A DNA stretch of 64,000 bases from Candidatus Limnocylindrales bacterium (lineage in GTDB: Bacteria; Desulfobacterota; Binatia; UBA1149; CAITLU01). The position numbers were made by a program, and so were the translations under genes. Shown here piece after piece: positions 4,536-52,745 of the stretch (positions within the stretch are counted from its first letter, which is position 1; each line of letters starts with the position of its first letter). The notes beneath the pieces were generated by a model. It saw nothing but the letters and a program-made list of their open reading frames with translations, made no database searches and was not told where the DNA came from. The stretch lies in contig DATNBU010000024.1 of NCBI GenBank assembly GCA_035571835.1, positions 62,001 to 126,000 of the forward strand, in the 5' to 3' direction.

Positions 4536-4541
4536 CCTCCC

Positions 4542-6623: not shown

Positions 6624-6689
6624 CGAAGTCAAGCCCGCGGCATGGAAGCCCCGCAGGGTGCGCCCGGGAGCGTTCCAGCCGTCTGGCGC

Positions 6690-7124: not shown

Positions 7125-7186
7125 GGCTCAACCCCTTGCGAACGCCCTGCGTGGCGTGGACGACGTTCGCGGAATGAAGATTGCGA

Positions 7187-7489: not shown

Positions 7490-7567
7490 ACGATTTTCCT
7501 TCGCGCGGGATCACGATCGGCGCGCAGATGGACCACGAACGCCGCATCGGCCGGTGCACGCCGCGCC

Positions 7568-35849: not shown

Positions 35850-36971
35850 ATGCCGTCGGCAAAATCGCTTGTTTCTACCGGGATTTCTGCGGTTTTTCTG
35901 CTGGCGGGCGCAACCGTCGCGCTTGCGGACGACACCGGGCCGACGTTCACGTTCGGGTCGTCGGTATCGTTTGACGTCGACATCAATCAGCCTCGAAAAC
36001 AGAACACGGACGAGAACAGGAAGACATACGCAGACGGCGAGTCGGAGGAGTCGTTCAACATCGACCTCGTACAGATCGGCGTGAGCGGAACCCGCAGCAT
36101 CGTCAGCTACGGAGCCAAATTCGATTTCGGCGACTGGTCCGAGGTCGTCGACAACGACATCGGCGACGAGGCTGCGCTTCAGGAGATGTACCTGGCCGTC
36201 GATGCGGGCTTTGCGGTGTTCTCGGCAGGACGCATACCGACGCCGATCGGCTATGAAGTCGTCGAGCCGTGGGCCGACCCCAACATCAGCCGCTCGCGTG
36301 CGTGGTTCTACCAGCCGGTCAGTCATGACGGCGCTGCCATTGCCGGAGTAGCCGGTCCGGTGAGCATGATGGCGGCGGTCGTCAACGGCTTTCACACCAG
36401 CGACAACGATCAGAACAATCCCGACGACGAATACGGCGTGATCGCGTCGATCGGCTCACGAATCCCGGGCGCAGACCTGCGGCTGAGCGCAATCTACAGC
36501 GATGAGAAAGACTCGGTCCGCAAGGTCGAGCTGAACGGCCTGATCTCCGGAAGCCGCGACCACTGGCGCTACGGGCTCGAAGGCACGTGGTTCGACGGCG
36601 ACGGTCACTCTCACAACGCTTCGCGTGCGCCGCTCGATGCGACGGTCGGCGACGTAACCGGCTACGGCGGGGCGACATTCGGACACTGGAGCGGCGACAT
36701 GCGCCTTTCCTGGACCGATCAGAAAGGCACGAACAAGAATTTCGAACGGCGCAATCACGAGAACATCGTCAGCTTCACGCTGACCGGCGGCTACGAGATC
36801 GTCGATGGCGTGGTGCTGCGCGCCGAATATCGCGTCGACAGCTCGAGCGACCGGATCTTCGACGATCACAATTCGTACACCGACAAAGTCACCGGTCCGT
36901 ATGGCCAGACCGACCTGATCAACGTCGTCAACGTGCAGCTGATGTGGACCCCCGCGACCGGGCAGAACTGA
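35850..36971 (+). CDS. outer membrane beta-barrel porin-like protein
   Basis: A 373-residue exported protein with a signal peptide (STGISAVFLLAGATVALA). The mature part has alternating beta strands and the features of BBP2/OprP-like porins: VGSFNI-type strands, FDFGDWSEVVDNDIG, YLAVDAGFAVFSAGRIPTPIG with a conserved inward loop, and a final strand. It ends in Asn rather than Phe. Channel specificity is unknown. It stands 66 bp after the small membrane protein and may be its own transcript. Confidence 0.72.
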   Translation: MPSAKSLVSTGISAVFLLAGATVALADDTGPTFTFGSSVSFDVDINQPRKQNTDENRKTYADGESEESFNIDLVQIGVSGTRSIVSYGAKFDFGDWSEVVDNDIGDEAALQEMYLAVDAGFAVFSAGRIPTPIGYEVVEPWADPNISRSRAWFYQPVSHDGAAIAGVAGPVSMMAAVVNGFHTSDNDQNNPDDEYGVIASIGSRIPGADLRLSAIYSDEKDSVRKVELNGLISGSRDHWRYGLEGTWFDGDGHSHNASRAPLDATVGDVTGYGGATFGHWSGDMRLSWTDQKGTNKNFERRNHENIVSFTLTGGYEIVDGVVLRAEYRVDSSSDRIFDDHNSYTDKVTGPYGQTDLINVVNVQLMWTPATGQN

Positions 36972-37087
36972 GCAGTGCGTTGAACCTGAAACCGGCGATT
37001 TTCATCTCCGCCTGAAAACGCGTTCAGCTGTTCTCCGGCCGGCTTGCGGAGTCACGGAACGACTCCAGCGCGTAGTCGCGCAGCGGG

Positions 37088-37312
37088 CTATTTCTCGATG
37101 ACGATGCGCAAATGGGTCGGCAGTGCCTCGACGCTGAGCACAGCGTAGCCCTCGGCTTCGGCGGCCGCGGGTAGATCTCGCTCCGAGCGCGGATCGTCGA
37201 CGAGCACCTCGATCTGATCGCCCGGAGCGACAATCTCGAGCACGCTCTTCGCCTTGGCCCAGTTGACCGGGCAGCGCAGTCCTCGCGCATCGACGCTTCG
37301 GATGGGGTCCAT
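37088..37312 (-). CDS. TusA/SirA-like sulfur carrier protein
   Basis: A 74-residue protein of TusA length. The family motif is GLRCPVNWAKAK with the conserved Cys-Pro near the N-terminus, followed by the two-strand/two-helix pattern IEVLVDDPRSERDLPAAAEA. Such proteins carry persulfide for tRNA thiolation or other sulfur transfers, though distant relatives have other roles. It lies alone, convergent with the porin gene. Confidence 0.85.
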   Translation of the reverse strand: MDPIRSVDARGLRCPVNWAKAKSVLEIVAPGDQIEVLVDDPRSERDLPAAAEAEGYAVLSVEALPTHLRIVIEK

Positions 37313-37426
37313 TGTGCGCGACTGTCATCGCGTCGCGCAGGAGAGTCAAAATGTGACGCGCGATGGAAAGCCTGAACGGCGGCTCAAATCCTCAGCTTTT
37401 GCAGGACGTTTCAACGAGATGCACGC

Positions 37427-37455
37427 TTGCTAACGGTCGCTTCGGACGGTTAGGA
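37427..37455 (+). promoter_or_regulatory. promoter-like element of Cys-rich paralogue A
   Basis: TTGCTA, 17 bp, TTAGGA, about 88 bp before the ATG. The same arrangement (TTGCTT, 17 bp, TTAGGA) precedes paralogue B at 40458. The remaining gap from 37313 shows nothing else notable. Confidence 0.5.
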
Positions 37456-37542
37456 ATGATGCGGGGAGTCGCGTCCTGACAGGCCGGCTCCAGAAGTATT
37501 CCCGCGCGAACGCCAGCCGGAAAAAGTGAGGAGAGCCTTCCC

Positions 37543-40293
37543 ATGCTTACCAGTACCCGTTTCTTCGTCTCGATGACGCTCGCCGCCGGCCTCGCGGCGG
37601 CATCCCTTCCGTCACCGGCCTCCGCCTTTACGACCGTCGAGCAGAAGTGCCGCACTTCGGTTTCGAAGTCCGGCGACAAGTACGCCAAGACTGCGCTCAA
37701 GGCGATGACCACGTGCCACAAGAAACGCGATGCCGATGCGTCCCTCAGCGGCACCGACTGCAACGACATCGACATGGCCGATTCCGCGAACAAGGTTCCC
37801 GCGGCGCAAACCAAGTTCGAGTCGACCGTCAATTCCAAGTGCGTCGGTGTAACTCCGGCCGCCGTGTCGTACGAGAATTGTCCGGCTCCGTGCAACGTCC
37901 TGGTTCCGGCCATCGCGACTTTCTCCGACGTCGTCGACTGTCTCTCGTGCCTGACCGACAACAACAGTGAGTCTTTCAGCGAGACCGCGAACGGCAGCCC
38001 GAGCTCTCCGCCGCTCACCGATCCCGAAGCCGCGTGCCATTCCGCGATCGTCAAGAGCGGAAGCAAGTTCTACAACAAAATTCTCAAGGCGATCACCAAG
38101 TGCCAGTCCAACGCCGAGAAGGACGGTGCCACCGGCATCACCACCTGCGCGAACGCGGGCTTCGAGACGACTGACCTTTACGATTCGTGCTTCTGGCCGG
38201 TCTACGACACGTGCACGGACGTCGAGCTGCCGAACGCGACGCTCGGCGCGTGCGCCGATCACCTGACGGACTTCGATCTCGCCCAGTGCGTGTGCGATGC
38301 CGCCAAGTCGTCCGCGCAGGAGCTCGGTCCGGAGTTCTTCGATCTGACCGGCGTCGTCACGACCACTACGACGACGACCACCAGCACCACGTCCACGACC
38401 TCGACGACCAACACGACGATCCCGGGCCTGCAGGATCCGAAGTGTCCGGATTTCGGCGAGCTGACCCTCTACTCGCGCGACAGTCTGGACCCATGCACGA
38501 GCAACACCGACTGTACGTTCCCGCGGACGTGCAACACGTCGATCGGCTATTGCACGACGGTTGCCGACCTCGACAGCGGCTGGACCGGCAACGCGCACAA
38601 CTCCGACATCAACGACGGCGTGGTGACGCGGGCGACGCTCGTCTGTCCGGGTCCTGCCCCGGCGTGCGGGGAATGCACGATCGGAGGTATCGATCCATCG
38701 ACGGACAATTGCCGCTGCTCGAACAATTCGCGGACGGTCTGTGACGATCCGTTCGCGCCCTCGGCGAGCCAATGCCCGGCGTGCGTCGGCGGATCCGGCG
38801 TCAACGGCAACACGTGCGCGAGCAACACGGACTGTAATTTCCCGTCATGCGCCGGCCGCTGTTCGGGTAATGTCGCCTATACCTGTGCGACGAACGCGGA
38901 TTGCCATACTCCGATTACCCCGGCGAACTACGGCAATTGCTCGACATCGACCGCGCCGAACTTCAAGAAGAAGTGCGGAAACGGGACGTTCTGCGACAGC
39001 AACGCCGACTGCATCGGCACGTGCTCCGGGCACGCGGGCTGCGAGTGCTTCTTCGGCGCTCCGTTCCCGCTCAACTCGGCCGGCACGGCGGTGTGCGTCG
39101 TCAACCGCTTCGCCAATGACATCAGCGGTACGGCCAACGTCGACCTCGGCTCGGGCGACATCACGGCCAATCTGCGCACGCGCATCTATCTCGGCATCAC
39201 GCAGGCCAAGCCGTGTCCGGTCTGCGGCGGCAAGTGCAGCCAGAGCCCGACCAAGGTGTGCGCGAACAACACGGACTGCGTGACGCCGTCGCCAGGCGGT
39301 ACGTGCGGCTCCTACGACCCCGTCGCGGGCGACGGCCTCCGGGGCGGTACGTGCAGCGGCGGCATCAACGGCGGGCTGTCGTGCGATGCGACCGCGACCA
39401 ACGCGACGTTCCCGGCAAGGACCAGTGGCGGCGTGGCGCAGCTTCCCGGCGGAGGCTCCTACAGCCTCGACTGCATGCCGAGCGATGGAGCCAACGTCTC
39501 GGGAACGGGCCTCGTCATCGACCTCGAGCAGACGACGGGCACGTCGACCTTGCCGTCGACTCTGGACTGCGACGCTGCTGGCCCCGGGACTGATCTGTGC
39601 CCGTGCATGCAGTGCTCCAAGGACAAGACCAGGGGCTGCTCAACGGACGCCCAGTGCACCACGCAGGGCCGCTTCTGTTCGAACTACAACGATCCGGTCA
39701 CGTTCAACTGCACGACGAACAGCGACTGCACGCTCGTCAATACGGGAACCTGCACGCTGCTGAGCGGGACGAAGTGCTCGAATGCGGCCACCCGAAGCTG
39801 CTCGACCAACGCCGACTGCGGCATGCAGCCGGGCGGGACATGCACGCTCTCGACGTGCTCGTCGCCGGGCCTCGGAGACATCCCGCAGCCGAACAAGTGC
39901 ACGAGCGGCCTGTGCGAGGACATCGGTGACGGCTTCAACGGCCGATGCACCGTCGGTCCGGACCAGGGCTACTGCGACGGCCTGCTGCGCATCGACGGCA
40001 CGGGCATGAACGCATGCGCTTCGAACTTCGATTGCACGAACGGGGATCACTGCACGCTGTCGCAGCGCAGGCTGTGCTTCCTCGATCCGATCGTCGCGGT
40101 TGGCGATCCTGATCCGAGCTTCCCGATTGCGGGCTCGACCTTCTGTGTACCGCCGACCGAGTACCCGGCGATCAATACGGTGGCCGGACTGCCGGGACCG
40201 GGCCGCGTGATCAGCCAGGGCGGCGCGAAAACGTTCTGCCACAACAACCACGGCGTCCAGTACACGCCGGGCGGCTCGCCGCCCTGTCCATAA
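37543..40293 (+). CDS. giant secreted Cys-rich protein, paralogue A
   Basis: A 916-residue exported protein of unknown function with a signal peptide (MLTSTRFFVSMTLAAGLAAA, cleavage near ASA). Residues ~29-267 hold two similar helical Cys modules (CRTSVSKSGDKYAKTALKAM; CHSAIVKSGSKFYNKILKAI). A poly-Thr/Ser linker spans ~270-295. From ~300 to the end is a Cys-dense module with about nine CxxNxDC-type units (CTSNTDC, CASNTDC, CATNADC, CDSNADC, CANNTDC, CTTNSDC, CSTNADC, CASNFDC) and Gly-rich inserts. No membrane anchor or C-terminal sorting tail is seen. A terminator follows at 40321. It is highly similar in its last 600 residues to the genes at 40569 and 46585. Confidence 0.85.
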   Translation: MLTSTRFFVSMTLAAGLAAASLPSPASAFTTVEQKCRTSVSKSGDKYAKTALKAMTTCHKKRDADASLSGTDCNDIDMADSANKVPAAQTKFESTVNSKCVGVTPAAVSYENCPAPCNVLVPAIATFSDVVDCLSCLTDNNSESFSETANGSPSSPPLTDPEAACHSAIVKSGSKFYNKILKAITKCQSNAEKDGATGITTCANAGFETTDLYDSCFWPVYDTCTDVELPNATLGACADHLTDFDLAQCVCDAAKSSAQELGPEFFDLTGVVTTTTTTTTSTTSTTSTTNTTIPGLQDPKCPDFGELTLYSRDSLDPCTSNTDCTFPRTCNTSIGYCTTVADLDSGWTGNAHNSDINDGVVTRATLVCPGPAPACGECTIGGIDPSTDNCRCSNNSRTVCDDPFAPSASQCPACVGGSGVNGNTCASNTDCNFPSCAGRCSGNVAYTCATNADCHTPITPANYGNCSTSTAPNFKKKCGNGTFCDSNADCIGTCSGHAGCECFFGAPFPLNSAGTAVCVVNRFANDISGTANVDLGSGDITANLRTRIYLGITQAKPCPVCGGKCSQSPTKVCANNTDCVTPSPGGTCGSYDPVAGDGLRGGTCSGGINGGLSCDATATNATFPARTSGGVAQLPGGGSYSLDCMPSDGANVSGTGLVIDLEQTTGTSTLPSTLDCDAAGPGTDLCPCMQCSKDKTRGCSTDAQCTTQGRFCSNYNDPVTFNCTTNSDCTLVNTGTCTLLSGTKCSNAATRSCSTNADCGMQPGGTCTLSTCSSPGLGDIPQPNKCTSGLCEDIGDGFNGRCTVGPDQGYCDGLLRIDGTGMNACASNFDCTNGDHCTLSQRRLCFLDPIVAVGDPDPSFPIAGSTFCVPPTEYPAINTVAGLPGPGRVISQGGAKTFCHNNHGVQYTPGGSPPCP

Positions 40294-40320
40294 AGACCTC
40301 GGTCATCGGCCGAACGTCGC

Positions 40321-40354
40321 GACGCCCCGCTGTGACTCGTCACAGCGGGGCGTC
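40321..40354 (+). terminator. terminator after paralogue A
   Basis: GACGCCCCGCTGTGA, CTCG, TCACAGCGGGGCGTC: a 15-bp stem, followed by GTCATTTGG, so the T run is weak. The stem core matches the terminator after paralogue C (50943). Confidence 0.8.
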
Positions 40355-40457
40355 GTCATTTGGAGCTCTGAACGAGGGTTACCACCAGATAAGGCCACGA
40401 CGGGCCTTCGTCGCACTGCGTCGAGACCTCGCGACGCCCGCAACGCCGAGTAATCTC

Positions 40458-40486
40458 TTGCTTACGCACCCTTTCGTTGGTTAGGA
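40458..40486 (+). promoter_or_regulatory. promoter-like element of Cys-rich paralogue B
   Basis: TTGCTT (40458-40463), 17 bp, TTAGGA (40481-40486). It is 82 bp before the ATG, a position very close to the matching element before paralogue A. Confidence 0.5.
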
Positions 40487-40568
40487 GTATGTTACGCGGC
40501 CGGCTTCCGGGGACGATACTGCGACCGCTGCCCGCCATTGTTTTCCAGAACCAGGGAGGAGTCTTTTC

Positions 40569-43295
40569 ATGTCCTACATGACACGTTTTTTTGTCGCCGC
40601 GTCGCTGACGCTGGGGCTCGCCGCCGCGGGTCTTCCGTCGCCGGCCTCGGCCGCCTTCACCGATGCCCAGCTCGGGTGCCGCAAAGAGATCGGGAAGTCC
40701 GGCACCAAGTACGTAAAGACGGCGATCAAATCGATGACCAAGTGCCACAAGTCGCAGGACAAGGACGGCGGCGCGGTCAACTGCAACAACATCGCGGCGA
40801 CCGATCCGGACAACAAGGTCCCCGCCGCCGCCGACAAGATCGAAGCGAAGGTCGTCGACAAGTGCACCGGCATCAATCCCACCGACGTGCTCTATGACGG
40901 CTGCCCGATCCCGTGCCACGGCGCGGTACCGACGGTCACGACTTTCGCGAACGTCGTCGACTGCATCGTGTGCCTGTCCAACAGCGACACGCAGAGCTAC
41001 AGTGACGAGGCCAACGGCAGCCCGACGGTACCGCTGACCAACGAGGCCGATCTCGACTGCCATTCGTCGATCGTCAAGAACAGCAGCAAGCTCTACAACT
41101 CGGCCGTCAAGAACGCCACGAAATGCCAGGCGAGCTACGACGAGCTCAACGATATCTCGACGTGCACGGGCAGCGGGTTCGCGGCGCTGACCAGCGACGC
41201 GTACGACAAGTGCCACGAAGCGGTCCAGGGCGACTGCTCTGCGGCGACGCTGCCTGGCACGACTCTCGATGCGTGCGGCGGCTCGGCGACCGCGTCGGCG
41301 CTGGCGACGTGTGTCTGCACGGCGGCGCTGAACGATGCGCAGACCAACGCGCAGCAGATCGTCGACCTGTCGGGACCGGTCGCCACAACGACGACGACGA
41401 CGACCACCACCACCTCGACGACGCTGATTGTCGGCGATGTCCAGTGTCCGGACCTCGGCGAGCTGACCCTGTACTCGCGCGACAGCCTGGATTCGTGCAC
41501 GAGCAACAGCGACTGTACCGCTCCGCGCACGTGCAACACCGCGATCGGATACTGCACGACCGTGGCGGATCTCGACAGCGGCTGGACCGGCAACGCGCAC
41601 AACTCCGACATCAACGATGGCGTAGTGACGCGCGCTTATCTGTACTGTCCGGGTCCCGCGCCGGCTTGCGGCGAATGCGATGTGCTCGGGATCGACCCGT
41701 CGCCGGGCAACTGCCGCTGTGAAAACAACTCGCGGACGGTCTGCGACAACCCGTTCGCATCGTCGGCCAGCGAATGCCCCGCGTGTGTCGGCGGCTCGGG
41801 CGTCGCCGGTAACACGTGCACGAGCAACACCGACTGCAATTTCCCGACGTGCAGCGGTCGCTGTTCGGGCAACGTCGCAGCTACTTGTGCGACGAACGCG
41901 GACTGCCATATTCCGGTCACGCCGGCGAACTACGGCAATTGCTCGACGTCGACGCCGCCGAACTTCAAGAAGAAGTGCGGAAACGGAACGTTCTGCGACA
42001 GCAATGCCGACTGCGTCGGCACCTGTACCGGCCAGGCGGGTTGCGAGTGCTTCTTCGGCGCTCCGTTCCCGCTCAATTCGGCTGGCACCGCGGTGTGCGT
42101 CGTCAACCGCTTCGCCAATAACATCAGCGGTACCGCCAACATCGATCTCGGCGCGGGCGACATCACGGCCAACCTGCGCACGCGCATCTACCTCGGCATC
42201 ACGCAGGCCAAGCCGTGTCCGGTCTGCGGCGGCAAGTGCAGCCAGAGCCCGACCAAAGCGTGCGCGAACAACGCGGATTGCGCGACGCCTTCACCGGGCG
42301 GCACGTGTGGCTCGTACGACCCCGTCGCGGGCGACGGCCTCCGCGGCGGTACGTGCAGCGGCGGTATCAACGGCGGGCTGTCGTGCGATGCGACAGCGAC
42401 CAACGCAACATTCCCGGCACGAAGCAGCGGCGGCGTGGCGCAGCTTCCAGGTGGAGGCTCCTACAGCCTTGACTGCCAGCCGAGTGACGGGGCGAACGTC
42501 TCGGGAACGGGCCTCGTCATCGATCTCGAGCAGACGACCGGAATGACGAGCTTGCCGGCAACCCTCGACTGCGATGGTGCCGGTGCCGGGACCGATCTGT
42601 GCCCGTGCATGCAGTGCTCGAAGGACAAGACGAGGGGGTGCTCGTCCGATTCGCAGTGCGCCGCGCAGGGCCTGTTCTGTTCAGCGTTCAACGATCCGGT
42701 CACGTACAACTGCGCGAGCAACGACGACTGTACGCTCGTCGATACGGGGACCTGCACGCTGCTGAGCGGGACGAAGTGCTCGAACGCGGCCACCCGAAGC
42801 TGCTCGACCAACGCCGACTGCGGCATGCAATTCGGTGGGGAGTGCACGGTTTCAACGTGCTCGTCGCCGGGCATCGGAGACATCCCGCAGCCGAACAAGT
42901 GCACCGGCGGCCTCTGCGAGGACAGCGGCGACGGCTTCAACGGAAGATGCACGGTCGGACCGGACCAGGGTTACTGCGACGGCCTGCTGCGCATCGACGG
43001 AACGGGCATGAACGCGTGCGCTTCGAACTTCGATTGCACGAACGGAGACAAGTGCACGCTGTCGCAGCGCAGGCTGTGCTTCCTCGACCCGATCGTCGCG
43101 GTCGGCGATCCTGATCCGAATTTCCCGATCGCGGGCTCGACCTTCTGCGTACCGCCGGTGGAGTACCCGGCGATCAATACGGTGGCCGGCTTGCCGGGGC
43201 CGGGCCGCGTGATCAGCCAGGGCAGCGCGAGAACGTTCTGCCACAACGACCACAACGTGGAGTACACGCCGGGCGGTTCGCCGGCCTGTCCGTAG
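40569..43295 (+). CDS. giant secreted Cys-rich protein, paralogue B
   Basis: A 908-residue exported protein with a signal peptide (FFVAASLTLGLAAAGLPSPA) after a strong GGGAGGAG Shine-Dalgarno. It has the same plan as paralogue A: two helical Cys modules (CRKEIGKSGTKYVKTAIKSM; CHSSIVKNSSKLYNSAVKNA), a Thr linker near residues 274-287 and the ~600-residue CxxNxDC module. The N-terminal half is much more diverged from A than the C-terminal half. It ends YTPGGSPACP with no anchor. Function unknown; the disulfide density and secretion suggest a surface or extracellular structural or binding role (inference). Confidence 0.85.
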   Translation: MSYMTRFFVAASLTLGLAAAGLPSPASAAFTDAQLGCRKEIGKSGTKYVKTAIKSMTKCHKSQDKDGGAVNCNNIAATDPDNKVPAAADKIEAKVVDKCTGINPTDVLYDGCPIPCHGAVPTVTTFANVVDCIVCLSNSDTQSYSDEANGSPTVPLTNEADLDCHSSIVKNSSKLYNSAVKNATKCQASYDELNDISTCTGSGFAALTSDAYDKCHEAVQGDCSAATLPGTTLDACGGSATASALATCVCTAALNDAQTNAQQIVDLSGPVATTTTTTTTTTSTTLIVGDVQCPDLGELTLYSRDSLDSCTSNSDCTAPRTCNTAIGYCTTVADLDSGWTGNAHNSDINDGVVTRAYLYCPGPAPACGECDVLGIDPSPGNCRCENNSRTVCDNPFASSASECPACVGGSGVAGNTCTSNTDCNFPTCSGRCSGNVAATCATNADCHIPVTPANYGNCSTSTPPNFKKKCGNGTFCDSNADCVGTCTGQAGCECFFGAPFPLNSAGTAVCVVNRFANNISGTANIDLGAGDITANLRTRIYLGITQAKPCPVCGGKCSQSPTKACANNADCATPSPGGTCGSYDPVAGDGLRGGTCSGGINGGLSCDATATNATFPARSSGGVAQLPGGGSYSLDCQPSDGANVSGTGLVIDLEQTTGMTSLPATLDCDGAGAGTDLCPCMQCSKDKTRGCSSDSQCAAQGLFCSAFNDPVTYNCASNDDCTLVDTGTCTLLSGTKCSNAATRSCSTNADCGMQFGGECTVSTCSSPGIGDIPQPNKCTGGLCEDSGDGFNGRCTVGPDQGYCDGLLRIDGTGMNACASNFDCTNGDKCTLSQRRLCFLDPIVAVGDPDPNFPIAGSTFCVPPVEYPAINTVAGLPGPGRVISQGSARTFCHNDHNVEYTPGGSPACP

Positions 43296-43317
43296 ACGAT
43301 CGGCTCGCAACGGCGAG

Positions 43318-43340
43318 TCGGGCGCCGGTTCGGCGCCCGA
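43318..43340 (+). terminator. GC hairpin after paralogue B
   Basis: TCGGGCGCC, GGTTC, GGCGCCCGA: a 9-bp GC stem just after the stop codon and just before a second, A/T-flanked hairpin. Confidence 0.6.
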
Positions 43341-43343
43341 TGC

Positions 43344-43381
43344 AAAAAAGGGGATCGGTGCAATGCACCGATCCCCTTTTG
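43344..43381. terminator. bidirectional intrinsic terminator
   Basis: An A6 run, a long stem GGGGATCGGTGCA/TGCACCGATCCCC, then TTTT. It sits between convergent paralogue B and the first beta-helix gene and could stop transcription from both sides. Confidence 0.85.
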
Positions 43382-43409
43382 TCAGGCGCCGCCGGAGGCT
43401 CTCGTTCCC

Positions 43410-44264
43410 TCAGAGGCAACTCAACGTCGATCCGGCAGCGGGCGGTATCATGCGATCGAGCTGGCAACTGCAAGGTGCGGTGCCGCCAATGTCTCCGTCA
43501 TCCTCGCACAGGTTGTGCGTGAAGGTCGCGTTCGCATAGACGGCATTGATCGGTATCGAGTCTTCGCCTCCCTCGATCACTACGTTATCCGTCAGCCGGA
43601 AATACGTGGTATCGGTGTTGTTGATACCTGCGTACGTGTAACCCCTTATCATGTTCTTCTGAATCAACGGTCCGGTCGCCGAACTCCTTCCGACGATGTG
43701 GATGCCGATGCTGCCGCCATCAATCCGGTTGTTTTCGATGACGTCGCTCGAATCGAGCAAGACCATATCGATCCCCGTCCCACCGGCAGGCGACTGGATG
43801 ACATTGCGCTGGTAGGCCTTGCCGTTGTTGCCGCCGTTGGCCCAGAGAATGCCGGTTGTGGCGTTGACAATTTTCATTTCCCTTACGGTGCCGCAATTCT
43901 TGACACCCGCGGAAAAAGTTCCAGTTCCATTGACGATATCGTTCACGGTGTCATTGACCGTACCTTGTACGATGCTGGTGACCCCCGAACCATCTTCACA
44001 CTGCACAGCGGGTCCGCATCCGGCCGATCGAATGCACGTAATCGTATAGCCGTTGGTATCGAGATTTTTCCCATTGGTCATCGTGATGCAGGCATCGGCG
44101 TTGGTCGAGGAGATCGCCCCGTTCAATTTCCAGTCGCCTGATCCACCGTAAGATCCGCAGCTGGTGATGAGGCCGACGGCCATCGCGGACGATGCGGAAC
44201 CGCCGATCAGGCCGACCATCGCAAAAAAAGCGGCGAGCATCATGCTGGAGCGTTCATTCTTCAT
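43410..44264 (-). CDS. secreted right-handed beta-helix protein 1
   Basis: A 284-residue exported protein. The start at 44264 has a strong GAGGAGGATT Shine-Dalgarno on the minus strand and opens the signal peptide (SMMLAAFFAMVGLIGGSASS). The mature part shows parallel beta-helix rungs: NLDTNGYTITCI, MKIVNATTGILWANGG, GIDMVLLDSSDVIENNRIDG, GIHIVGRSSATG, YAGINNTDTTYFRLTDNVVI. Paired Cys residues lie near both ends. No catalytic motif of a lyase or hydrolase is obvious. It is in the same orientation as the second beta-helix gene and 83 bp after it. The region looks less GC-rich than its neighbours. Confidence 0.78.
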   Translation of the reverse strand: MKNERSSMMLAAFFAMVGLIGGSASSAMAVGLITSCGSYGGSGDWKLNGAISSTNADACITMTNGKNLDTNGYTITCIRSAGCGPAVQCEDGSGVTSIVQGTVNDTVNDIVNGTGTFSAGVKNCGTVREMKIVNATTGILWANGGNNGKAYQRNVIQSPAGGTGIDMVLLDSSDVIENNRIDGGSIGIHIVGRSSATGPLIQKNMIRGYTYAGINNTDTTYFRLTDNVVIEGGEDSIPINAVYANATFTHNLCEDDGDIGGTAPCSCQLDRMIPPAAGSTLSCL

Positions 44265-44347
44265 TGAGAAAATCCTCCTCCCGGGTTTGGTTCTGGAATT
44301 TGCCGGAATCTTGTCTTTCACAGGTGCGTACATGGCGTGCTCCTTCC

Positions 44348-45901
44348 TCACAGCAGTGGGTAGAGGATGGGCGGATCATCCGTTTCGCACTGATCGGCGC
44401 ATGCGCACATCAGGTGGCTGTAGGCTGCCAAGTCGAGCGAATGGCATCCCGTAGCGGTCGGTGTTGCGTCGCGATACAGAAGGTTGTTCTTGAACTCGGC
44501 GTACGCCGAGGTGGTGTGGTCCGTGGTGTGCAGTGGGTTCGTGCTCGACTCGCGCACGACGTTGTTCGTCAATTGCGATTTGCCGAGTCCGCTGTTCACC
44601 ACGCCTCCGATGACCAGCCCTTGAGTTCCACCGCGTAGATAGTTGTTGGTGACCGTGGATGAGTTGCGGTTCGCCATCCATACGTCGGCCGCCGTAGTGA
44701 CGGCGGTGATGACACTGTTCTTCAGTGCGGCGAGGGGATATCCATTCGAATTGCTCACTCCAACATCCGGTCCATCCATTCGAACCGCGTCGATCGTTGC
44801 GCAGTTGATGATCCCATTGGCGAACGCACCGCGAATGCCGCCTTTGTTTACGCCGGACGAGCTGTCTTTGATCGTGACCCCGCTGACATTGGCACATGTG
44901 ATCGCAGTGCCGCCGCTCAACGAATTCATGATCGTGTGTCCGTTGAGGTCGATCGTTACGCCCGCAGCGGCTATGTTGAGGCAAGTTCCGGATGTGGCTG
45001 CGAGGTCATAGTTGGCGGATAACGTCGTATTGGTGGTGATGTTCGACGGACATGCCGTCGTCGATGCGTATTCGGGGAACTCGTAAGCGATGTCGGTCGT
45101 CGTATCGCAGATGGAGCTGCCGTAGACACAATCGTCATCGTCACAATAGGTGTGACCATCTCCGCTCGGGCTACCCGCAACATCGATGCAATACGCCGGA
45201 TCCGGGGCCGCGTCGCCAGGATTCTGTTCGCGGAGATAGTTGCTCCGAAAATCAACTAGGTCCGTATCGCTGTGGATCTGGTAGTATTTCCCGTCATTGA
45301 TCACATTTCGTTCGATCCGGGCTGACCGAAGATCGCTCGTATCAGCCATTCCGGTGATGTAAATGCCGCCATTGGTCGCGCGAATATTATTAAATGAGAT
45401 GGCCGATGAGCCTTTTGCGAGATCGCCGTAAAACCCGAACGTATCGGCATTGATGTATGTGTTGGTGAGAGACTGAAGCGGATTACCGGTGTTATACACG
45501 CCGTATCCGGCCCGCCCGTCGATAACCACGCCCTCGATGGTCGAGCAGTTTGCAATTCCGTAGACGCTCGTCCCCGAGATCGTCCCTTTCGTCGTCCCGG
45601 TGTCTTGAATCGTTATGCCCGTGTTAGCACAGTAGATTGCGGCAGTGCCGGCGCCGGTACCGGTTCGGCTGATATTGTGGCCTTTGAGATCGATGACGCC
45701 GGTCCCCGACACGTTAAAGCAAATTCCGCCCGATCCGAGATCATAGTCGGTCGTCAGCTCGAACAGTCCGAAATAAGGCGAGGCCGACAGGTCGATGCTC
45801 GACCCAGGACACGACGTTGCGTGTGCGTTGAATGAAGAGAAGAAAATTACAGCTGCGACTTCGATGACGATCCATCGCGGCAGCCATTTCTGGTTTTGCA
45901 T
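44348..45901 (-). CDS. secreted right-handed beta-helix protein 2 (double repeat)
   Basis: A 517-residue exported protein, starting at 45901 after a GGAGGGG Shine-Dalgarno, with signal peptide WIVIEVAAVIFFSSFNAHA. It contains two homologous halves, each opening with CPGSSI/CPSNIT and going through GVIDLKGHNISRTG / GVTIDLNGHTIMNS, GITIQDTGTTKGTI / GVTIKDSSSGVNKGGI and GVVIDGRAGYGVYN / AVRMDGPDVGVSN. Between the halves is a short Asp/Cys stretch (YCDDDDCVYG). The relation to the downstream 284-aa protein is clear from rung style. Function unknown. Confidence 0.78.
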   Translation of the reverse strand: MQNQKWLPRWIVIEVAAVIFFSSFNAHATSCPGSSIDLSASPYFGLFELTTDYDLGSGGICFNVSGTGVIDLKGHNISRTGTGAGTAAIYCANTGITIQDTGTTKGTISGTSVYGIANCSTIEGVVIDGRAGYGVYNTGNPLQSLTNTYINADTFGFYGDLAKGSSAISFNNIRATNGGIYITGMADTSDLRSARIERNVINDGKYYQIHSDTDLVDFRSNYLREQNPGDAAPDPAYCIDVAGSPSGDGHTYCDDDDCVYGSSICDTTTDIAYEFPEYASTTACPSNITTNTTLSANYDLAATSGTCLNIAAAGVTIDLNGHTIMNSLSGGTAITCANVSGVTIKDSSSGVNKGGIRGAFANGIINCATIDAVRMDGPDVGVSNSNGYPLAALKNSVITAVTTAADVWMANRNSSTVTNNYLRGGTQGLVIGGVVNSGLGKSQLTNNVVRESSTNPLHTTDHTTSAYAEFKNNLLYRDATPTATGCHSLDLAAYSHLMCACADQCETDDPPILYPLL

Positions 45902-46483
45902 GCGTACCCCTCCTGATTGACGTTGTTCATCGCCGAATTGCGAGTGCTCCGTGTATGCGGGGCCGGTTGGCACGAGGTCAATGCAAAGCGACGTGGGAAT
46001 TATGTTGGCGTATCTAAAGAGCGTGATCGGAAATTCATTCACGCAAGCGCGCGTGTAGCTACGCACGTATTACGGATGTCATGTAGAGGCTGCGTGCGCG
46101 TCGTAGCTACGCGCGAGTTGAGAACGAGACGCAGCATCGCGCACTTGCGTGCAGCACCGTTGGCGTATCGATGTTCGCCGGCGTGGCACTGCCAGACGCC
46201 GAACCGCACAACGCACCGACTGGTGAACGACGCAGGAGGCGTTGTGACGGGAGCCGGCATGCCCGACGAAAAAAACGAATCCGAGTCGTTTCGGAACTGA
46301 AAAGGCCTCAAGGCAGGCGGGGGCTTCTGTGCCGCAGCGTACTTTGCGACTTCGAGCCACGGCCCAAATTTCGTTCTCGTATCAATCAGTCCGCGTTTCT
46401 ATAGCGCTCTGGCAACAATGGTGTCAGTAGCAAGAAGGCGGGCGACGAGGAGCGTCACCCTCCGCACCTGCGCTTTTTTACCC
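45902..46483. other. gene-free control region
   Basis: Divergent spacer between the beta-helix operon and paralogue C. I see no convincing gene. Two copies of GTAGCTACG lie 46 bp apart (46056-46063 region and 46102-46111, the latter the palindrome CGTAGCTACG), possible regulator sites for the divergent genes. Confidence 0.35.
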
Positions 46484-46512
46484 TTGACCCAGCGTGGCTG
46501 GCCCTGTCTACA
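46484..46512 (+). promoter_or_regulatory. sigma70-like promoter of paralogue C
   Basis: TTGACC (46484-46489), 17 bp, TCTACA (46507-46512), about 73 bp before the ATG at 46585. Confidence 0.5.
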
Positions 46513-46584
46513 ACGCAGCGGGCCACGACCACGCCCGCCGCCCTGTTCTCGGCCTGTAGTCTTACCAACCCGGAGGGGACCTGT

Positions 46585-49500
46585 ATGAAGCCTCGCTCGA
46601 ACGTATCCGCATTCCTTCTCAGTACATTCGGCGTCTCCATCGCGATGGCGATGACCGCTTTTCCGGCCTTCGCGATCACCAACGACCAGCAGGGCTGTGT
46701 GAACGCGATCAACAAGGCCGGCGCCAAGGTCGCGGCCACGCAGGGCAAAGACAACGCCGCGTGCGTCAAGGCGGCGGGTTCCGGGAATCTGGAAATGCAG
46801 ACCACCGACCAGTGCGTGATGGCCGACAACAAGGGCAAGGTCGCGGGCGCAGAAACGAAGACGACCGACGCCGAGTCGTCGAAGTGCAGTCCGCCGCTGC
46901 CGGCGATCGCGTTCACCGGTGCCGCAACGGCAAACACGGCAGCGATCAGCGAAGAGGTTGCACTGCTGAGCGCGATCTACGGATCCACGGTCCACACCGC
47001 GATGCTGACCGATCATGACGGCGCCGCGTGCCAGGCCGCCGTGACGAAGTCGTACGAGAAGCTCGGATCGACGCGGCTCAAGGCGTTCAACGGGTGCAAG
47101 AAGGACTTTCTCAAGTCGAACCCGGGGGCGACCGCGGTTCAGCTCCAGGTCTGTCTGACAACGCCGAGCTCTGCCGATCCGAAAGGCAAGGTCAGCGGCG
47201 CGACCACCAAGCTGTCGGATACCGTCACGGCGAAATGCGCCGGCGTCGCTCTGGCGACGGCATTTCCGGGCTGCTCTGCCCAGGCCGGCTCGGCCGCGAC
47301 CCTGTCCGCATGCGTGGCGCGTAACGTCGAGTGCCGCATGTGCCTGATGACCAACGCCATGGACAACCTTTCGACTCCCTGCGACCAGTTCGACGACGGC
47401 GTCGTGAACCAGACGTGCCGCCAGTGCGGCAACGGCCTCGCCGAAGCGCCCGAGCCTTGCGACACGGCCGGCGACTCCGCATCCTGCGATTCCGACTGCA
47501 CGACCATTTCTTGCGGCGACGCGCATACCAACCTTGCAGCCGGCGAAGCGTGCGACGCCGGCACTGAAACCGCCGCCTGCGATGACGACTGCTCGCTGCC
47601 TTCGTGCGGCGACGGCAACCTGAACACTGCTGCCGGCGAAGTCTGCGACGACGGCAACGCCACCAACGGCGACGGCTGCGACAACAACTGCACCGTCTCG
47701 GCCTGCGGCAACGGGATTGCGGCCGGCAGCGAAGCCTGCGACGACGGCAATACCGTCAATACCGACGCGTGCCTCAATACCTGCGTGGTCGCGACCTGCG
47801 GCGACGGCGTCCGCTGCAACGGTGCCGGATGCGTCAGCGGCCCGTCCGGCGGGGCGGAATCCTGCGACGACGGCAACGGCCTGAACACCGACAACTGCCT
47901 CACCAACTGCGCGGCAGCGACCTGCGGTGACGGCAACCTCTGCAGCTCGCCGGGCTGCACGACCGGTCCGACCGGCGGCCTCGAGCAGTGCGACAACGAC
48001 GGTTCCAACAGCAACGTCACGCCCAATGCGTGCCGCACCAACTGCAAGCTCCCGACCTGCGGCGACGGCGTGACCGACGCGGGCGAAGGCTGCGACGACG
48101 CGAACGCGGTCAACACCGATCACTGTCTGAATACCTGCGTGGTTGCGACCTGCGGCGACGGCGTCCGGTGCAACGGCGCGGGTTGCGTGAGCGGCCCGTC
48201 CGGAGGCGCAGAGGCCTGTGACGATGCCAACGGTTCGAATACCGACAGCTGCCTGACCAACTGTGCCGCGGCGACCTGCGGCGACGGCAATCTCTGCAGC
48301 ACGCCGGGCTGCACGACCGGTCCGACCGGCGGCGTCGAGCAGTGCGACAACGACGGCTCCAACAGCAACGTCACGCCCAACGCGTGCCGCACCAACTGCA
48401 AGCTCGCGAGCTGCGGCGACGGAGTCACCGACGCCGGTGAAGGCTGCGACGACGGCAATGCTGTCAACACCGACCATTGTCTGAACAGCTGCGTGGTCGC
48501 CACGTGCGGCGACGGCGTCAAGTGCAACGGCGCCGGCTGCGTCAGCGGCCCGAGCGGCGGCGCGGAGGCCTGCGACGACGGCAACGGCCTGAACACCGAC
48601 AACTGCCTTACGACCTGCGCATCGGCGGCCTGCGGCGACGGATTCCTGTGCAGTGCCCCTGGGTGCACGACCGGTCCGAGCGGCGGCGTCGAGCAGTGCG
48701 ACAACGACGGCTCCAACAGCAACGTCACGCCGAACGCCTGCCGCACCACGTGCCGCACTGCTTTCTGTGGCGACAACGTCACGGACGCCGGCGAGACCTG
48801 CGACAGCGGCGGCGTGAACACCGTGTCGTGCGACTCCAACTGCACGTCCGTCGCGTGCGGCGACGGCTTCATCAACTCCGCGGCAGGCGAAACCTGCGAC
48901 GGCGGAGGCGAAACCCTGACGTGCGATGCCAACTGCACGGCCAGGGTCTGCGGCGACGGCACGATCAACACGACCGCCGGCGAAATCTGCGACGACGGCA
49001 ACACCGCCAGCGGCGACGGCTGCTCGTCGACGTGCCAGAGCGGTGCGGGTTCGGGCGAATCCGATCCTGGATGCCCCAATCTCGGCGAGCTGGTGCTGTA
49101 CTCGCACGACAGCCTCGACGCGTGCACGAGCAACGCGGACTGCACGGTCCCTCGCACGTGCAACACGTCGATCGGCTACTGCACGACGGTTGCCGACCTC
49201 GACAGCGGCTGGACCGGCAACGCGCACAACTCCGACATCAACGATGGAGTCGCGACACGCGCGTACCTCGTTTGTGAAGGACCGCCGTCGCCCGGCTGCG
49301 GCCAATGCGAAGTGGCGGGAATCGATCCGTCGACGGACAACTGCCGCTGCTCGAACAATTCGCGAACGGTGTGTGACGAACCATTCGCGTCTGCGGTGAG
49401 CGAATGCCCGGCGTGCGTCGGCGGCTCGGGAGTCAACGGCAACACGTGCACGAGTAATACCGACTGCAATTTCCCGACATGCGCCGGCCGCTGCTCGGGT

Positions 49501-50919
49501 AACTCGGCCTTTACCTGTACGACGAACGCGGACTGCCATACTCCGGTCACTCCGACGAACGTCGGCAACTGCTCGACGTCGACGGCGCCGAACTTCAAGA
49601 AGAAGTGCGGAAACGGAACGTTCTGCGACACCAACGCCGACTGTATCGGCACGTGCTCGGGCCAGGCGAGCTGCGAGTGCTTCTTCGGCGCTCCGTTCCC
49701 GCTCAACTCGGCCGGCACGGCGGTGTGCGTCGTCAACCGCTTCGCCAACGATATCAGCGGTACGGCCAACGTCGATCTCGGCTCGGGCGACATCACGGCC
49801 AACCTGCGCACGCGCATCTACCTCGGCATCACGCAGGCCAAGCCGTGTCCGGTCTGCGGCGGCAAGTGCAGCATTCTGACGACCAAGACGTGCGCGAACA
49901 ATTCGGACTGCCTTGCGGGGCAAGGCACGTGCGGCTCGTACGACCCCGTCGCCAGCGACGGGCTCCGTGGCGGCACGTGCAGCGGCGGCATCAACACCGG
50001 CCTGTCGTGCGATGCGACGGCGACCAACGCGACGTTCCCGGCACGAAGCAGCGGAGGCGTAGCGCAGCTTCCGGGTGGAGGCTCCTACAGCCTCGACTGC
50101 ATGCCGAGCGACGGAGCCAACGTCTCGGGAACGGGTCTCGTCATCGATCTGGAGCAGACGACGGGCACGTCGACCTTGCCGTCGACTCTGGACTGCGACG
50201 CTGCCGGTCCCGGGACCGACCTGTGCCCGTGCCTGCAGTGTTCGAAGGACAAGACGAGAGGCTGCTCATCGGACGCCCAGTGCGCCACGCAGGGCCGGTT
50301 CTGTTCCGCCTTCAACGACCCGACCACGTTCAACTGCACGACGAACAGCGACTGCACGCTCGTCAACACGGGCACCTGCACGCTGCTGAGCAACACGAAG
50401 TGCTCGAACGCGTCCACGCTGAGCTGCACGACCAACGCCCAATGCGGGATGCAGCCGGGCGGGACATGCACGCTCTCGACATGTTCGTCGCCGGGCATCG
50501 GTGACATCCCGCAACCGAACAAGTGCACGAGCGGACTCTGTGAGGACATCGGCGACGGGTTCAACGGCCGATGCACGGTCGGACCGGACCAGGGCTACTG
50601 CGACGGCCTGCTGCGCATCGACGGGACGGGCATGAACGCGTGCGCTTCGAACTTCGATTGCACGAACGGGGATCACTGCACGCTGTCGCAGCGCAGGCTG
50701 TGCTTCCTCGATCCGATCGTCGCGGTCGGCGATCCTGATCCGAGCTTCCCGATTGCGGGCTCGACCTTCTGTGTACCGCCGACCGAGTTCCCGGCGATCA
50801 ATACGGTGGCCGGACTGCCGGGACCGGGCCGCGTGATCAGCCAGGGCGGCGCGACCACGTTCTGCACGACGGACCACAACGTCCAGTACACGCCGGGCGG
50901 CATCCCGGCCTGCCCGTAA
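46585..50919 (+). CDS. giant secreted Cys-rich protein with Myxo-type Cys repeats, paralogue C
   Basis: A 1444-residue exported protein, the largest of three paralogues. After a signal peptide (VSIAMAMTAFPAFA) comes a helical Cys region to ~275. Residues ~275-822 are tandem DUF4215/myxobacterial Cys repeats (CGDG...GE.CDDGN...DGC...C). This array includes three copies of an exact 118-residue super-repeat. There is no poly-Thr linker; a short SGAGSGESDPGC joins to the ~600-residue CxxNxDC module shared with A and B. The last ~70 codons are almost identical to A at the DNA level. A strong terminator follows. Function unknown; a secreted or surface adhesive or binding role is an inference. Confidence 0.88.
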   Translation: MKPRSNVSAFLLSTFGVSIAMAMTAFPAFAITNDQQGCVNAINKAGAKVAATQGKDNAACVKAAGSGNLEMQTTDQCVMADNKGKVAGAETKTTDAESSKCSPPLPAIAFTGAATANTAAISEEVALLSAIYGSTVHTAMLTDHDGAACQAAVTKSYEKLGSTRLKAFNGCKKDFLKSNPGATAVQLQVCLTTPSSADPKGKVSGATTKLSDTVTAKCAGVALATAFPGCSAQAGSAATLSACVARNVECRMCLMTNAMDNLSTPCDQFDDGVVNQTCRQCGNGLAEAPEPCDTAGDSASCDSDCTTISCGDAHTNLAAGEACDAGTETAACDDDCSLPSCGDGNLNTAAGEVCDDGNATNGDGCDNNCTVSACGNGIAAGSEACDDGNTVNTDACLNTCVVATCGDGVRCNGAGCVSGPSGGAESCDDGNGLNTDNCLTNCAAATCGDGNLCSSPGCTTGPTGGLEQCDNDGSNSNVTPNACRTNCKLPTCGDGVTDAGEGCDDANAVNTDHCLNTCVVATCGDGVRCNGAGCVSGPSGGAEACDDANGSNTDSCLTNCAAATCGDGNLCSTPGCTTGPTGGVEQCDNDGSNSNVTPNACRTNCKLASCGDGVTDAGEGCDDGNAVNTDHCLNSCVVATCGDGVKCNGAGCVSGPSGGAEACDDGNGLNTDNCLTTCASAACGDGFLCSAPGCTTGPSGGVEQCDNDGSNSNVTPNACRTTCRTAFCGDNVTDAGETCDSGGVNTVSCDSNCTSVACGDGFINSAAGETCDGGGETLTCDANCTARVCGDGTINTTAGEICDDGNTASGDGCSSTCQSGAGSGESDPGCPNLGELVLYSHDSLDACTSNADCTVPRTCNTSIGYCTTVADLDSGWTGNAHNSDINDGVATRAYLVCEGPPSPGCGQCEVAGIDPSTDNCRCSNNSRTVCDEPFASAVSECPACVGGSGVNGNTCTSNTDCNFPTCAGRCSGNSAFTCTTNADCHTPVTPTNVGNCSTSTAPNFKKKCGNGTFCDTNADCIGTCSGQASCECFFGAPFPLNSAGTAVCVVNRFANDISGTANVDLGSGDITANLRTRIYLGITQAKPCPVCGGKCSILTTKTCANNSDCLAGQGTCGSYDPVASDGLRGGTCSGGINTGLSCDATATNATFPARSSGGVAQLPGGGSYSLDCMPSDGANVSGTGLVIDLEQTTGTSTLPSTLDCDAAGPGTDLCPCLQCSKDKTRGCSSDAQCATQGRFCSAFNDPTTFNCTTNSDCTLVNTGTCTLLSNTKCSNASTLSCTTNAQCGMQPGGTCTLSTCSSPGIGDIPQPNKCTSGLCEDIGDGFNGRCTVGPDQGYCDGLLRIDGTGMNACASNFDCTNGDHCTLSQRRLCFLDPIVAVGDPDPSFPIAGSTFCVPPTEFPAINTVAGLPGPGRVISQGGATTFCTTDHNVQYTPGGIPACP
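47797..48810 (+). repeat. 354-bp super-repeat in paralogue C
   Basis: Equivalent codons (TGC of CGDGV(R/K)CNGAGC) occur at 47797, 48151 and 48505, an exact 354-bp period. Units 1 and 2 are complete; unit 3 diverges after ~300 bp. This points to recent in-frame tandem amplification. Confidence 0.88.
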
Positions 50920-50942
50920 GTCGCTGCCAGGCGGCTGAAGCG

Positions 50943-50978
50943 AAAACGCCCCGCTGTGATTTCACAGCGGGGCGTTTT
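50943..50978 (+). terminator. intrinsic terminator after paralogue C
   Basis: AAAACGCCCCGCTGTGA, TT, TCACAGCGGGGCGTTTT: a 17-bp perfect stem flanked by A and T runs. Confidence 0.92.
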
Positions 50979-51297
50979 GCTTTTGGATCCGCGGCCCTTC
51001 GTTTGTGCAGCACCGGTTTGATGGTTGCCGGTATTGTGGTTTTTGCCACAACGAGGAAGCACGCCGCCATGATCGCCGTGCTGTGGATAACTGTCCGGCG
51101 TCGCCTGCAAACACCTGTTCGTCGCCGCGAACTCCATGCTCCGACGGCCGAAGCTTCGGCAGCATATGCACGTTCCGGGATATCAGCGCTCGGCGCGTGA
51201 ACGTCGTAACGTCGCGCCGACATGCGGCCATGTCATTGACCGTCCGGCGCCGCTTTCGATACGCGTGGTGCATCCCGATCCGCTCTGGAGTGCGCCG
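50979..51297. other. gene-free spacer before XRE gene
   Basis: About 320 bp with no convincing gene. A small hairpin TTGTGG/CCACAA (51034-51051) is present. A weak Shine-Dalgarno CTGGAG at 51285-51290 belongs to the XRE gene. Confidence 0.35.
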
Positions 51298-51555
51298 ATG
51301 AAAACCAAGCTTTCGAAGATTCTCTACGACAAGGGCTGGACCGAAATGGAGCTTTCGCGGCGCACGGGTCTCGCGCAGAGTTACATCAACCGGGTCAAGA
51401 ACGCGCGCGTCGTGCCGACGGTCCGCACCGCGCTCAAGATCTGCCGTGCGCTCAACGTCGCCGTCGAGGACGCGTTCGTCTACGAGGACAAGCCGTACGG
51501 TGTCACGCATTCCGTGTATTTTCCGAGCTCCCACGCCCTGGTCGCCGAGGACTGA
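51298..51555 (+). CDS. XRE-family small DNA-binding protein
   Basis: An 85-residue protein with an N-terminal helix-turn-helix of XRE/Cro type (LSKILYDKGWTEMELSRRTG, LAQSYINRVKNARVVP, then TALKICRALNVAVEDAFVY). There is no further domain beyond a ~17-residue tail. The frame is open to 51136, but the ATG at 51298 with CTGGAG fits the domain start. It stands alone between paralogue C and dus; its target is unknown. Confidence 0.85.
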   Translation: MKTKLSKILYDKGWTEMELSRRTGLAQSYINRVKNARVVPTVRTALKICRALNVAVEDAFVYEDKPYGVTHSVYFPSSHALVAED

Positions 51556-51659
51556 CGCGGGCGGGCGGCAATTCGGCCGCGGCCCGGACTCGGTGGTTTC
51601 TCCGGGGCCGGATTCGGGGCAATTCGGCCGCGGGCCGGATTTGAGATAGACGACCGGTG

Positions 51660-52745
51660 ATGGAGCCCGGGCTGCTGAGGCCGCTTTCGATCGGACCGGT
51701 CGTCACGCGCACCAACCTCATCCTTTCACCGATGTCGGGAGTGACCGACTGCGCGTTCCGCACCACCGTGCTCGAGGCCAGCGGTCGGGATGCCGTCGGC
51801 CTGCTCGTCAGCGAATTCGTCGCGGCGGAAGGCCTTTCGCGCGACAACGCCAAGACCATCGCGATGCTCCGCTACCAGGAAGTCGAGCGGCCGTTCTCGA
51901 TCCAGATCTTCGGCGCCGACGTCGACCGCATGGTGCGTGCCGCCGAGATGGTCGAGGAGATCGGCGCCGACATCGTCGACATCAACTGCGGTTGCCCGGC
52001 GCCGAAGGTCGTTCGTCGCGGAGGCGGCGCCCAGCTGATGCGCACACCCGACGTGCTGCGCGACATCCTCGTCGCGGTGCGTGCCGCGGTCTCCATCCCG
52101 GTAACGGTCAAGATCCGCGCCGGCTGGGACGATGCCAGCCGCAACGCCGTCGAAGTCGCACGCATGGTCGAAGGCGAAGGCGCGGCGATGCTGGCGGTGC
52201 ACGGGCGCACCCGGCTCCAGCTCTACAGCGGCGAATCCGACTGGAACCTGATCGGCGAGGTCGCGAGCCGGCTCTCGATCCCGGTGATCGGTAGCGGTGA
52301 CGTCATCGATGCCGAAGGCGCGCTCGAGCGGCTGCGCGGCGGTTACGCCGACGGTGTGATGATCGGCCGCGGCGCGATCTCCAACCCGTGGATCTTCGGA
52401 CAGACGCTCGCGCTCGCGAATGGATACGAGGTCCGCGACCCGTCCACGCTCGAGCGCATCGCGATCCTCGAACACTTTGCCGGCTCGCTTGCCGAAACCA
52501 AGGACCTGCGGGCCTATCTCGGTCGCCTGCGCGGGCTTGCGTGTCACATGGCCAAGGGTCTTCCGGGCGGCGCGGCCACAAGGCGCGTGCTCGGCAAGGC
52601 GACGCTTCCCGCCGACATCCTGCGCATCGTGCGCGAGTTCCTGCTCGAAGGCCGCCGCTTCGAAGAGCTCGTCGAAGACGACGCCCGCCTCCCGGTGATG
52701 CCGACTGCTGACGCCGACGGCGATGCGATCGCCGAAGTCGCCTGA
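51660..52745 (+). CDS. dus: tRNA-dihydrouridine synthase (DusB-like)
   Basis: A 361-residue FMN enzyme that reduces uridines in tRNA. Seen: the N-terminal LILSPMSGVTDCAFR, FSIQIFGADVDRMVRAAEM, the catalytic-Cys signature DIVDINCGCPAPKVVRRGGGAQLM, VKIRAGWDD, AVHGRTRLQLYSGESDW and VIGSGDVID / GVMIGRGAISNPWIF. ATG at 51660 (GTG at 51657 is directly before). It is 17 bp from the PTPS gene. Direct repeats of GGCAATTCGGCCGCGG occur at 51567 and 51618 upstream. Confidence 0.93.
   Translation: MEPGLLRPLSIGPVVTRTNLILSPMSGVTDCAFRTTVLEASGRDAVGLLVSEFVAAEGLSRDNAKTIAMLRYQEVERPFSIQIFGADVDRMVRAAEMVEEIGADIVDINCGCPAPKVVRRGGGAQLMRTPDVLRDILVAVRAAVSIPVTVKIRAGWDDASRNAVEVARMVEGEGAAMLAVHGRTRLQLYSGESDWNLIGEVASRLSIPVIGSGDVIDAEGALERLRGGYADGVMIGRGAISNPWIFGQTLALANGYEVRDPSTLERIAILEHFAGSLAETKDLRAYLGRLRGLACHMAKGLPGGAATRRVLGKATLPADILRIVREFLLEGRRFEELVEDDARLPVMPTADADGDAIAEVA

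Follow-up and report, generated by a model that had tools for sequence, protein, structure and literature searches.

A locus of a large, order-wide family of exported-looking, cysteine-rich modular proteins in an uncultured bacterium

Introduction

What kind of system is encoded by a tandem of long, Cys-rich paralogues that carry the same C-terminal half and different N-terminal halves? Such a tandem is found in the window, which denotes the whole stretch of 64,000 nucleotides analyzed here and which belongs to a genome of 5.46 Mb in 46 contigs (98.4% complete). The initial annotation of its three genes, designated A, B and C in this study, proposed a family of three giant secreted proteins that make up a dedicated extracellular or surface system in a 13-kb block. 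This first reading of the locus is partly supported, and it is replaced here by that of one locus of a large family distributed throughout the order.

Architecture of the three proteins

The three reading frames proposed by the initial annotation were confirmed (Table 1). All of them are intact, start with ATG and have a purine-rich Shine-Dalgarno-like sequence just upstream, and their GC contents at the three codon positions are 0.51-0.54, 0.58-0.61 and 0.85-0.86, respectively. With 908-1444 aa, the description of the products as giant was overstated.

Table 1. Features of the locus, with positions in the window
Feature	Position	Strand	Basis
BBP2/OmpL-like porin gene, upstream; beside a family gene in most order relatives	35850..36971	+	PF07642 1.1e-22
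Protein A, 916 aa	37543..40293	+	ORF and paralogue alignment
A, signal peptide, 28 aa, end ASA/F	37543..37626	+	by eye
A, helical Cys module (N-module), 242 aa, duplicated three-helix unit	37627..38352	+	AlphaFold and hhalign
A, linker including poly-Thr run	38353..38436	+	ORF and paralogue alignment
A, C-terminal module (C-module), 618 aa, 62 Cys	38437..40290	+	alignments
Hairpin after A, stem nearly equal to that after C, without T run	40321..40354	+	boundaries by eye
Protein B, 908 aa	40569..43295	+	ORF and alignment
B, helical N-module, 240 aa	40656..41375	+	N-module comparisons
B, C-module	41439..43292	+	alignments
Terminator-like hairpin after B; A run before, T run after	43346..43380	+	by eye, absent from scan list
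Beta-helix protein between B and C, outside the family	43410..44351	-	PF13229 2.7e-6
Second ORF between B and C, exported-looking by eye	44348..46066	-	Pfam E<=1: no match
Protein C, 1444 aa	46585..50919	+	ORF and alignment
C, helical N-module of a lineage other than A/B, groups with own-genome L053 (100/99)	46675..47397	+	trees, AU test
C, Myxo-type/DUF4215 Cys repeats, ~556 residues, 73 Cys	47398..49065	+	TIGR02232 1.3e-18, DUF4215 1.6e-9
C, C-module	49066..50916	+	alignments
Intrinsic-terminator-like hairpin after C, 16-pair stem	50943..50978	+	terminator scan

Each protein begins with a signal-peptide-like N-terminus, recognized by eye without a predictor. Behind the signal peptide, which was likewise cut by eye, A and B contain 78 Cys residues each and C contains 148; these totals are all even, while two sub-parts of C hold odd numbers by the boundaries chosen here (13 in the N-module and 73 in the repeats). 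The three paralogues are thus Cys-rich and exported-looking, in line with their annotation as secreted proteins. The absence of an anchor was also corroborated, as the best Kyte-Doolittle mean over 19 residues in the last 60 windows is 0.78-0.88, indicating no hydrophobic tail, and searches of NCBIfam together with hydropathy found no anchor or sorting tail in A, B or C. Inside the N-module, one stretch reaches 1.75 in A and 1.56 in B.

A and B matched no Pfam or NCBIfam family at E<=1, and C matched such families in its repeats only, where the whole-protein score is 66.5 bits for TIGR02232 (curated cut-off of NCBIfam, 20.8) and 38.3 bits for DUF4215 (curated cut-off of Pfam, 27); no binding domain of a known family was recognizable in any of the three. 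A literature search by name found no paper on DUF4215. Poly-Thr linkers, noted in the initial annotation, are seen in A and B. The annotation had further described the N-terminal parts as swapped, being either helical or built of Myxo-type repeats; an exchanged N-part in C is upheld below, but the alternative itself is not, since C carries both the helical N-module and the Myxo-type repeats. The motif CxxNxDC occurs eight times in A, eight times in B and seven times in C. Over the whole genome, the corresponding DNA pattern gave 145 matches (78 + 67) versus a single match for the pattern read backward, and its abundance is therefore not a matter of chance.

No sigma-70-like promoter site was found in positions 36900-51700, versus 1.8 expected. 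Behind each of the three genes lies a separate hairpin, so an operon is unlikely; the hairpins after A and C have nearly identical stems. Among the 13 order genomes, the larger of the two opposite-strand ORFs between B and C has relatives in its own genome only.

Two domain families

The C-module comprises 617-618 aa with 62 Cys in each of the three proteins, in agreement with the shared module of about 600 residues in the initial annotation. A tblastn search of the genome with the C-module gave 40 matches, which were grouped into 19 genes, and one more member (L047_4721) was recognized from its neighborhood. The family of three is therefore one of about 20 genes, whose frames total ~17,450 aa or about 1% of the genome bases, a sum in which the starts were set mechanically and one frame is cut. 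Alignment of the 19 C-modules revealed 31 invariant columns, 23 of which are Cys, and a core of the type CxCYFGAPxPLSSGGTPxCVVNRF..SGT...LRTxVYLG...PCPxC. Stretches with CxxNxDC, present in A-C as annotated, are inserted around this core; they are optional and do not belong to it, since four of the 19 C-module proteins (L045, L046, L048 and L050) have no CxxNxDC, and the 358-aa frame of L109 has the core without such inserts (by eye) and without an N-part.

A match of the C-module to a characterized family was sought with Pfam, NCBIfam and a profile search of PDB sequences, and none was found. Specifically, one of the 19 members matched Pfam at E<=0.1, with one family only (Dumpy_DPY, 0.0013); among 16 N-modules, four weak matches appeared, each in one member (best, 0.0041); and the profiles of both modules gave no match to PDB sequences at E<=1. 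Nanobody chains for the C-module of A (E 0.48-0.64) and two phage families of unknown function (0.077 for A and 0.0099 for C) were set aside as weak. Kinship of the C-module with phages or plasmids was rejected, as tblastn yielded no hit at E<=0.001 among 50,697 phage records and 72,556 plasmid records. Internal duplication of the C-module was rejected as well, with hhalign probabilities under 2 among four chosen segments.

Structure prediction, which had been suggested as a check, succeeded for one module and failed for the other. The model of the C-module (pLDDT 36.8) is useless, whereas the N-module of A was modeled confidently from an alignment of ten rows (pLDDT 88.9, pTM 0.88). The two halves of the N-module alignment match each other (hhalign probability 97.8, E 7.9e-13), so this module arose by duplication of a three-helix unit, and it carries conserved Cys. 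In L051 (G000:C35:3000-16000, positions 5872-8196), a helical N-module is joined to RCC1-type repeats without a C-module, which indicates that the helical N-module is an independent domain.

The N-parts vary among the members of the family and include the helical module, Myxo/DUF4215 repeats and dockerin-like halves, and poly-Thr linkers also occur. Judged by eye, L044, L045 and L046 contain several short Cys repeats of another type behind the C-module. Elsewhere, members stand in adjacent pairs at L038 and L047 in the same genome, at L149 and L150 in G377 and at L103 in JACRCR. A second family locus with common neighbors was observed in this genome (L042) and in three other records (L103, L104 and L107), and two family genes stand side by side in L103.

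Distribution among genomes

Profile searches, which covered the own phylum and yield lower bounds as family counts per genome, detected the C-module at E<=1e-10 in 5 of 297 sampled genomes of the phylum, all in the own class, and at E<=1e-6 in 28 of the 148 class genomes, among them every one of the 13 from the order. The N-module is distributed more widely (52 of 148 class genomes at E<=1e-5). A scan of genome contigs with two short patterns gave seven loci, including one in a Candidatus Binatota bacterium and three in Deltaproteobacteria bacterium records (Myxococcota by NCBI ranks); the same kind of scan with a single protein gave none. In a word search of a survey of the Binatota (PMC8262859), the group to which this lineage probably belongs, the word "surface" occurs once, referring to lake water, and "extracellular", "secret", "cysteine", "adhesi" and "pili" are absent.

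An old single-gene locus expanded in this lineage

The gene order serA, purA, ggt, GNAT, BBP2 porin, family gene, dusB, ptps, pepP and sppA is conserved fully or partially in ten further order genomes (L125, L128, L130, L131/L106, L132, L134, L135/L105, L136, L138 and L141). A family gene is found at the same place in 11 of the 12 other order genomes, and all nine genomes that have both flanks on one contig carry a single family gene there; in G373 (L134) and G375 (L146) a contig end cuts the place, where more copies may lie. In the four stretches taken from G377, no family gene was found at this place. The window has three family genes at this position, with two opposite-strand ORFs between B and C. 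One gene in nine relatives versus three here implies a lineage-specific expansion, namely a triplication, of one old gene. A dedicated conserved cluster was thus rejected, and the 13-kb block is better described as an old single-gene locus that has expanded in this lineage.

An all-against-all comparison of the neighbors confirmed that synteny is conserved and picked out a small number of protein groups present at several unlinked loci; no family-specific partner gene was found, and no neighbor group recurs at most of the family loci. Among the recurring groups are a membrane protein (near L042, L049, L056, L104 and L107), an exported-looking repeat protein (near L040, L047, L055 and L104) and a glutathione-transferase-like protein, named by eye (near L043, L044, L053 and L054).

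A constant C-module and an exchanged N-part

Over the C-module, A, B and C share 85.9-89.4% pairwise identity, with dN of 0.068-0.094, dS of 0.33-0.45 and dN/dS of about 0.16-0.21; on these substitution rates, the C-module is under purifying selection. At four-fold sites, the identity of the C-modules clearly exceeds chance, with 0.72 for A/B (221/306), 0.79 for A/C (243/309) and 0.73 for B/C, the chance level being 0.50-0.51 for A/B and A/C, while the N-parts stay close to chance, with 0.51 for A/B (32/63; chance 0.45) and 0.41 for A/C (18/44; chance 0.41).

Phylogenetic analysis of the C-module united A, B and C in one clade (100/100), next to which stands G371 (97/96), from the same genus. 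In the N-module tree, however, C groups with L053 (100/99), a protein of the same genome that combines a helical module with Myxo-like repeats (by eye), and the tie of A to G371 is weak (86/75). An AU test, run after the trees had been seen and with C flagged as a long branch in the N-module tree, rejected A, B and C as one clade of N-modules (p 0.0011) but did not reject A and B as one clade (p 0.299), so C is the one protein whose N-part can be called exchanged. In C, a copy of the local C-module thus appears to have been combined with an N-part from another lineage, and the nearly common hairpin behind A and C fits this view. Two histories of A and B agree with the data, namely a plain duplication in which the N-part evolved fast, or older N-parts with a homogenized C-module.

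Possible function

Our preferred reading, which is tentative, is that A, B and C are exported, disulfide-stabilized modular proteins of a large order-wide family that most likely act extracellularly, either at the outer surface or within the matrix around the cell. The proteins would be exported by Sec and then by type II secretion, for which two secretin genes over the cut-off are present in the genome, and their Cys would be oxidized to disulfides. The C-module might serve as the constant part, docking or assembling on a partner common to the family, and the helical N-domain as the exchangeable part that sets specificity, presumably held away by the flexible Thr linker in A and B or by a disulfide-repeat stalk in C. 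The common partner is suggested by the conservation of the C-module, a pattern that gene conversion between the tandem copies could produce by itself.

An alternative role in uptake is raised by the porin gene upstream of A: an exported capture protein might hand its substrate to the BBP2 porin, the two forming one unit. A porin match is present in 11 of the 13 order genomes, the own genome included, and the porin adjoins a family gene in 10 of these 11; in G373, both lie at contig edges. However, the whole neighborhood (serA, purA, ggt, dusB, ptps, pepP and sppA) is conserved too, so this adjacency may be plain synteny. Moreover, G371 has the family gene at this place and no porin match, the porin of G372 contains an internal stop, and the own genome contains one porin match, which leaves its other family genes without a porin beside them. 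An uptake unit of this kind is considered unlikely. The many dockerins of the genome (37 matches to Dockerin_1, of which 27 are marked as exceeding the cut-off, 8 of them only jointly with frame neighbors) suggest a different possibility, in which the family would provide the cargo or the base of a dockerin-held scaffold, and by eye the first half of several members resembles a dockerin, that of L043 scoring 18.6 bits against a cut-off of 22.9. On the other hand, the half of L041 alone gave no dockerin match, L037, L040, L041 and L043, which carry these halves, had no Pfam match as whole proteins at E<=0.01, and dockerin is absent from A, B and C (Pfam, E<=1). Cohesin (PF00963) gave no match in the own genome at E<=0.01, in a search whose control yielded matches in 2 of 14 genomes and over the cut-off in one. 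Assembly on such a scaffold is considered quite improbable.

Differing N-parts on a constant C-part, an exported look and tandem expansion would also be expected of secreted factors against other bacteria, with the activity residing in the exchangeable N-parts. This explanation is regarded as very unlikely, as no catalytic or pore-forming family was found in the NCBIfam and Pfam searches, the comparison of neighbors revealed no obvious small partner gene kept alongside, and weapon genes are rarely kept at one place across an order. Binding or storage of metals through the many Cys of the C-module is highly improbable: exported Cys-rich chains are expected to be oxidized to disulfides, with which the even Cys totals agree, and no metal-binding Pfam family matched A, B or C.

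Beyond the preferred reading of surface or matrix proteins, a broader and more doubtful proposal is an order-wide surface system that pairs, by recombination, a constant, disulfide-rich C-module with a set of N-terminal heads (helical, disulfide-repeat or dockerin-like) in about 20 genes covering 1% of the genome. Tandem copies would keep the constant part alike while the heads diverge, giving a recognition or matrix repertoire from two undescribed domain families. These two families are delimited here by boundaries, invariant Cys and one confident model, with no Pfam match common to their members, and family models would name many unassigned proteins of this lineage and offer a starting point for studying surface construction in these uncultured bacteria. 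The tandem array with its constant C-part and exchangeable N-part provides a testable case of modular evolution.

Comparison with known systems

Several known systems share single features with the family. The TIGR02232 myxo_disulf_rpt and DUF4215 repeats are represented by five stretches of each in C, but they are confined to the middle of this protein, and A, B, the helical module and the C-module are without a match. DUF7107, a family of short Cys repeats, had no match in A, B or C at E<=1; it matches L055 of the same genome (G000:C28:500-12000, positions 4309-6042, minus strand; 577 aa, 1e-23), which contains 17 CxxNxDC motifs. By eye, both ends of L055 resemble dockerins; the second scores 15.1 bits (cut-off 22.9), and the first gave no dockerin match. 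Dockerin-bearing extracellular proteins resemble some members in the dockerin-like halves, recognized by eye and with one weak score, and differ in that the genome has no cohesin match and A-C carry no dockerin.

The N-module model resembles the tandem three-helix bundles of the PhoU type in its duplicated three-helix unit. In VIA-align, the best Z is 8.6, and PhoU-like chains reach 7.0-8.4 among the best twelve; these values lie below the level that the tool states to be common among helical bundles, and the likeness is read as a common arrangement. Foldseek found no match to the PDB at E<=0.001 (best E 0.22) and a best value of 1.2 against BFVD, and, unlike the PhoU-type bundles, the N-module is exported-looking and Cys-rich.

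The overall layout proposed here would resemble that of a head-stalk-base surface receptor or adhesin, for example, myxobacterial TraA. TraA is described as consisting of a PA14 head, a Cys-rich stalk and MYXO-CTERM, and its Cys-rich repeats were proposed to act as a stalk for the PA14 head (PMC3325183). The likeness is an analogy of an exported head on a Cys-rich stalk, and the family is not a TraA: A, B and C have no match to PA14, TIGR04201 or MYXO-CTERM at E<=1, and where TraA carries MYXO-CTERM, they end in the C-module without a hydrophobic tail.
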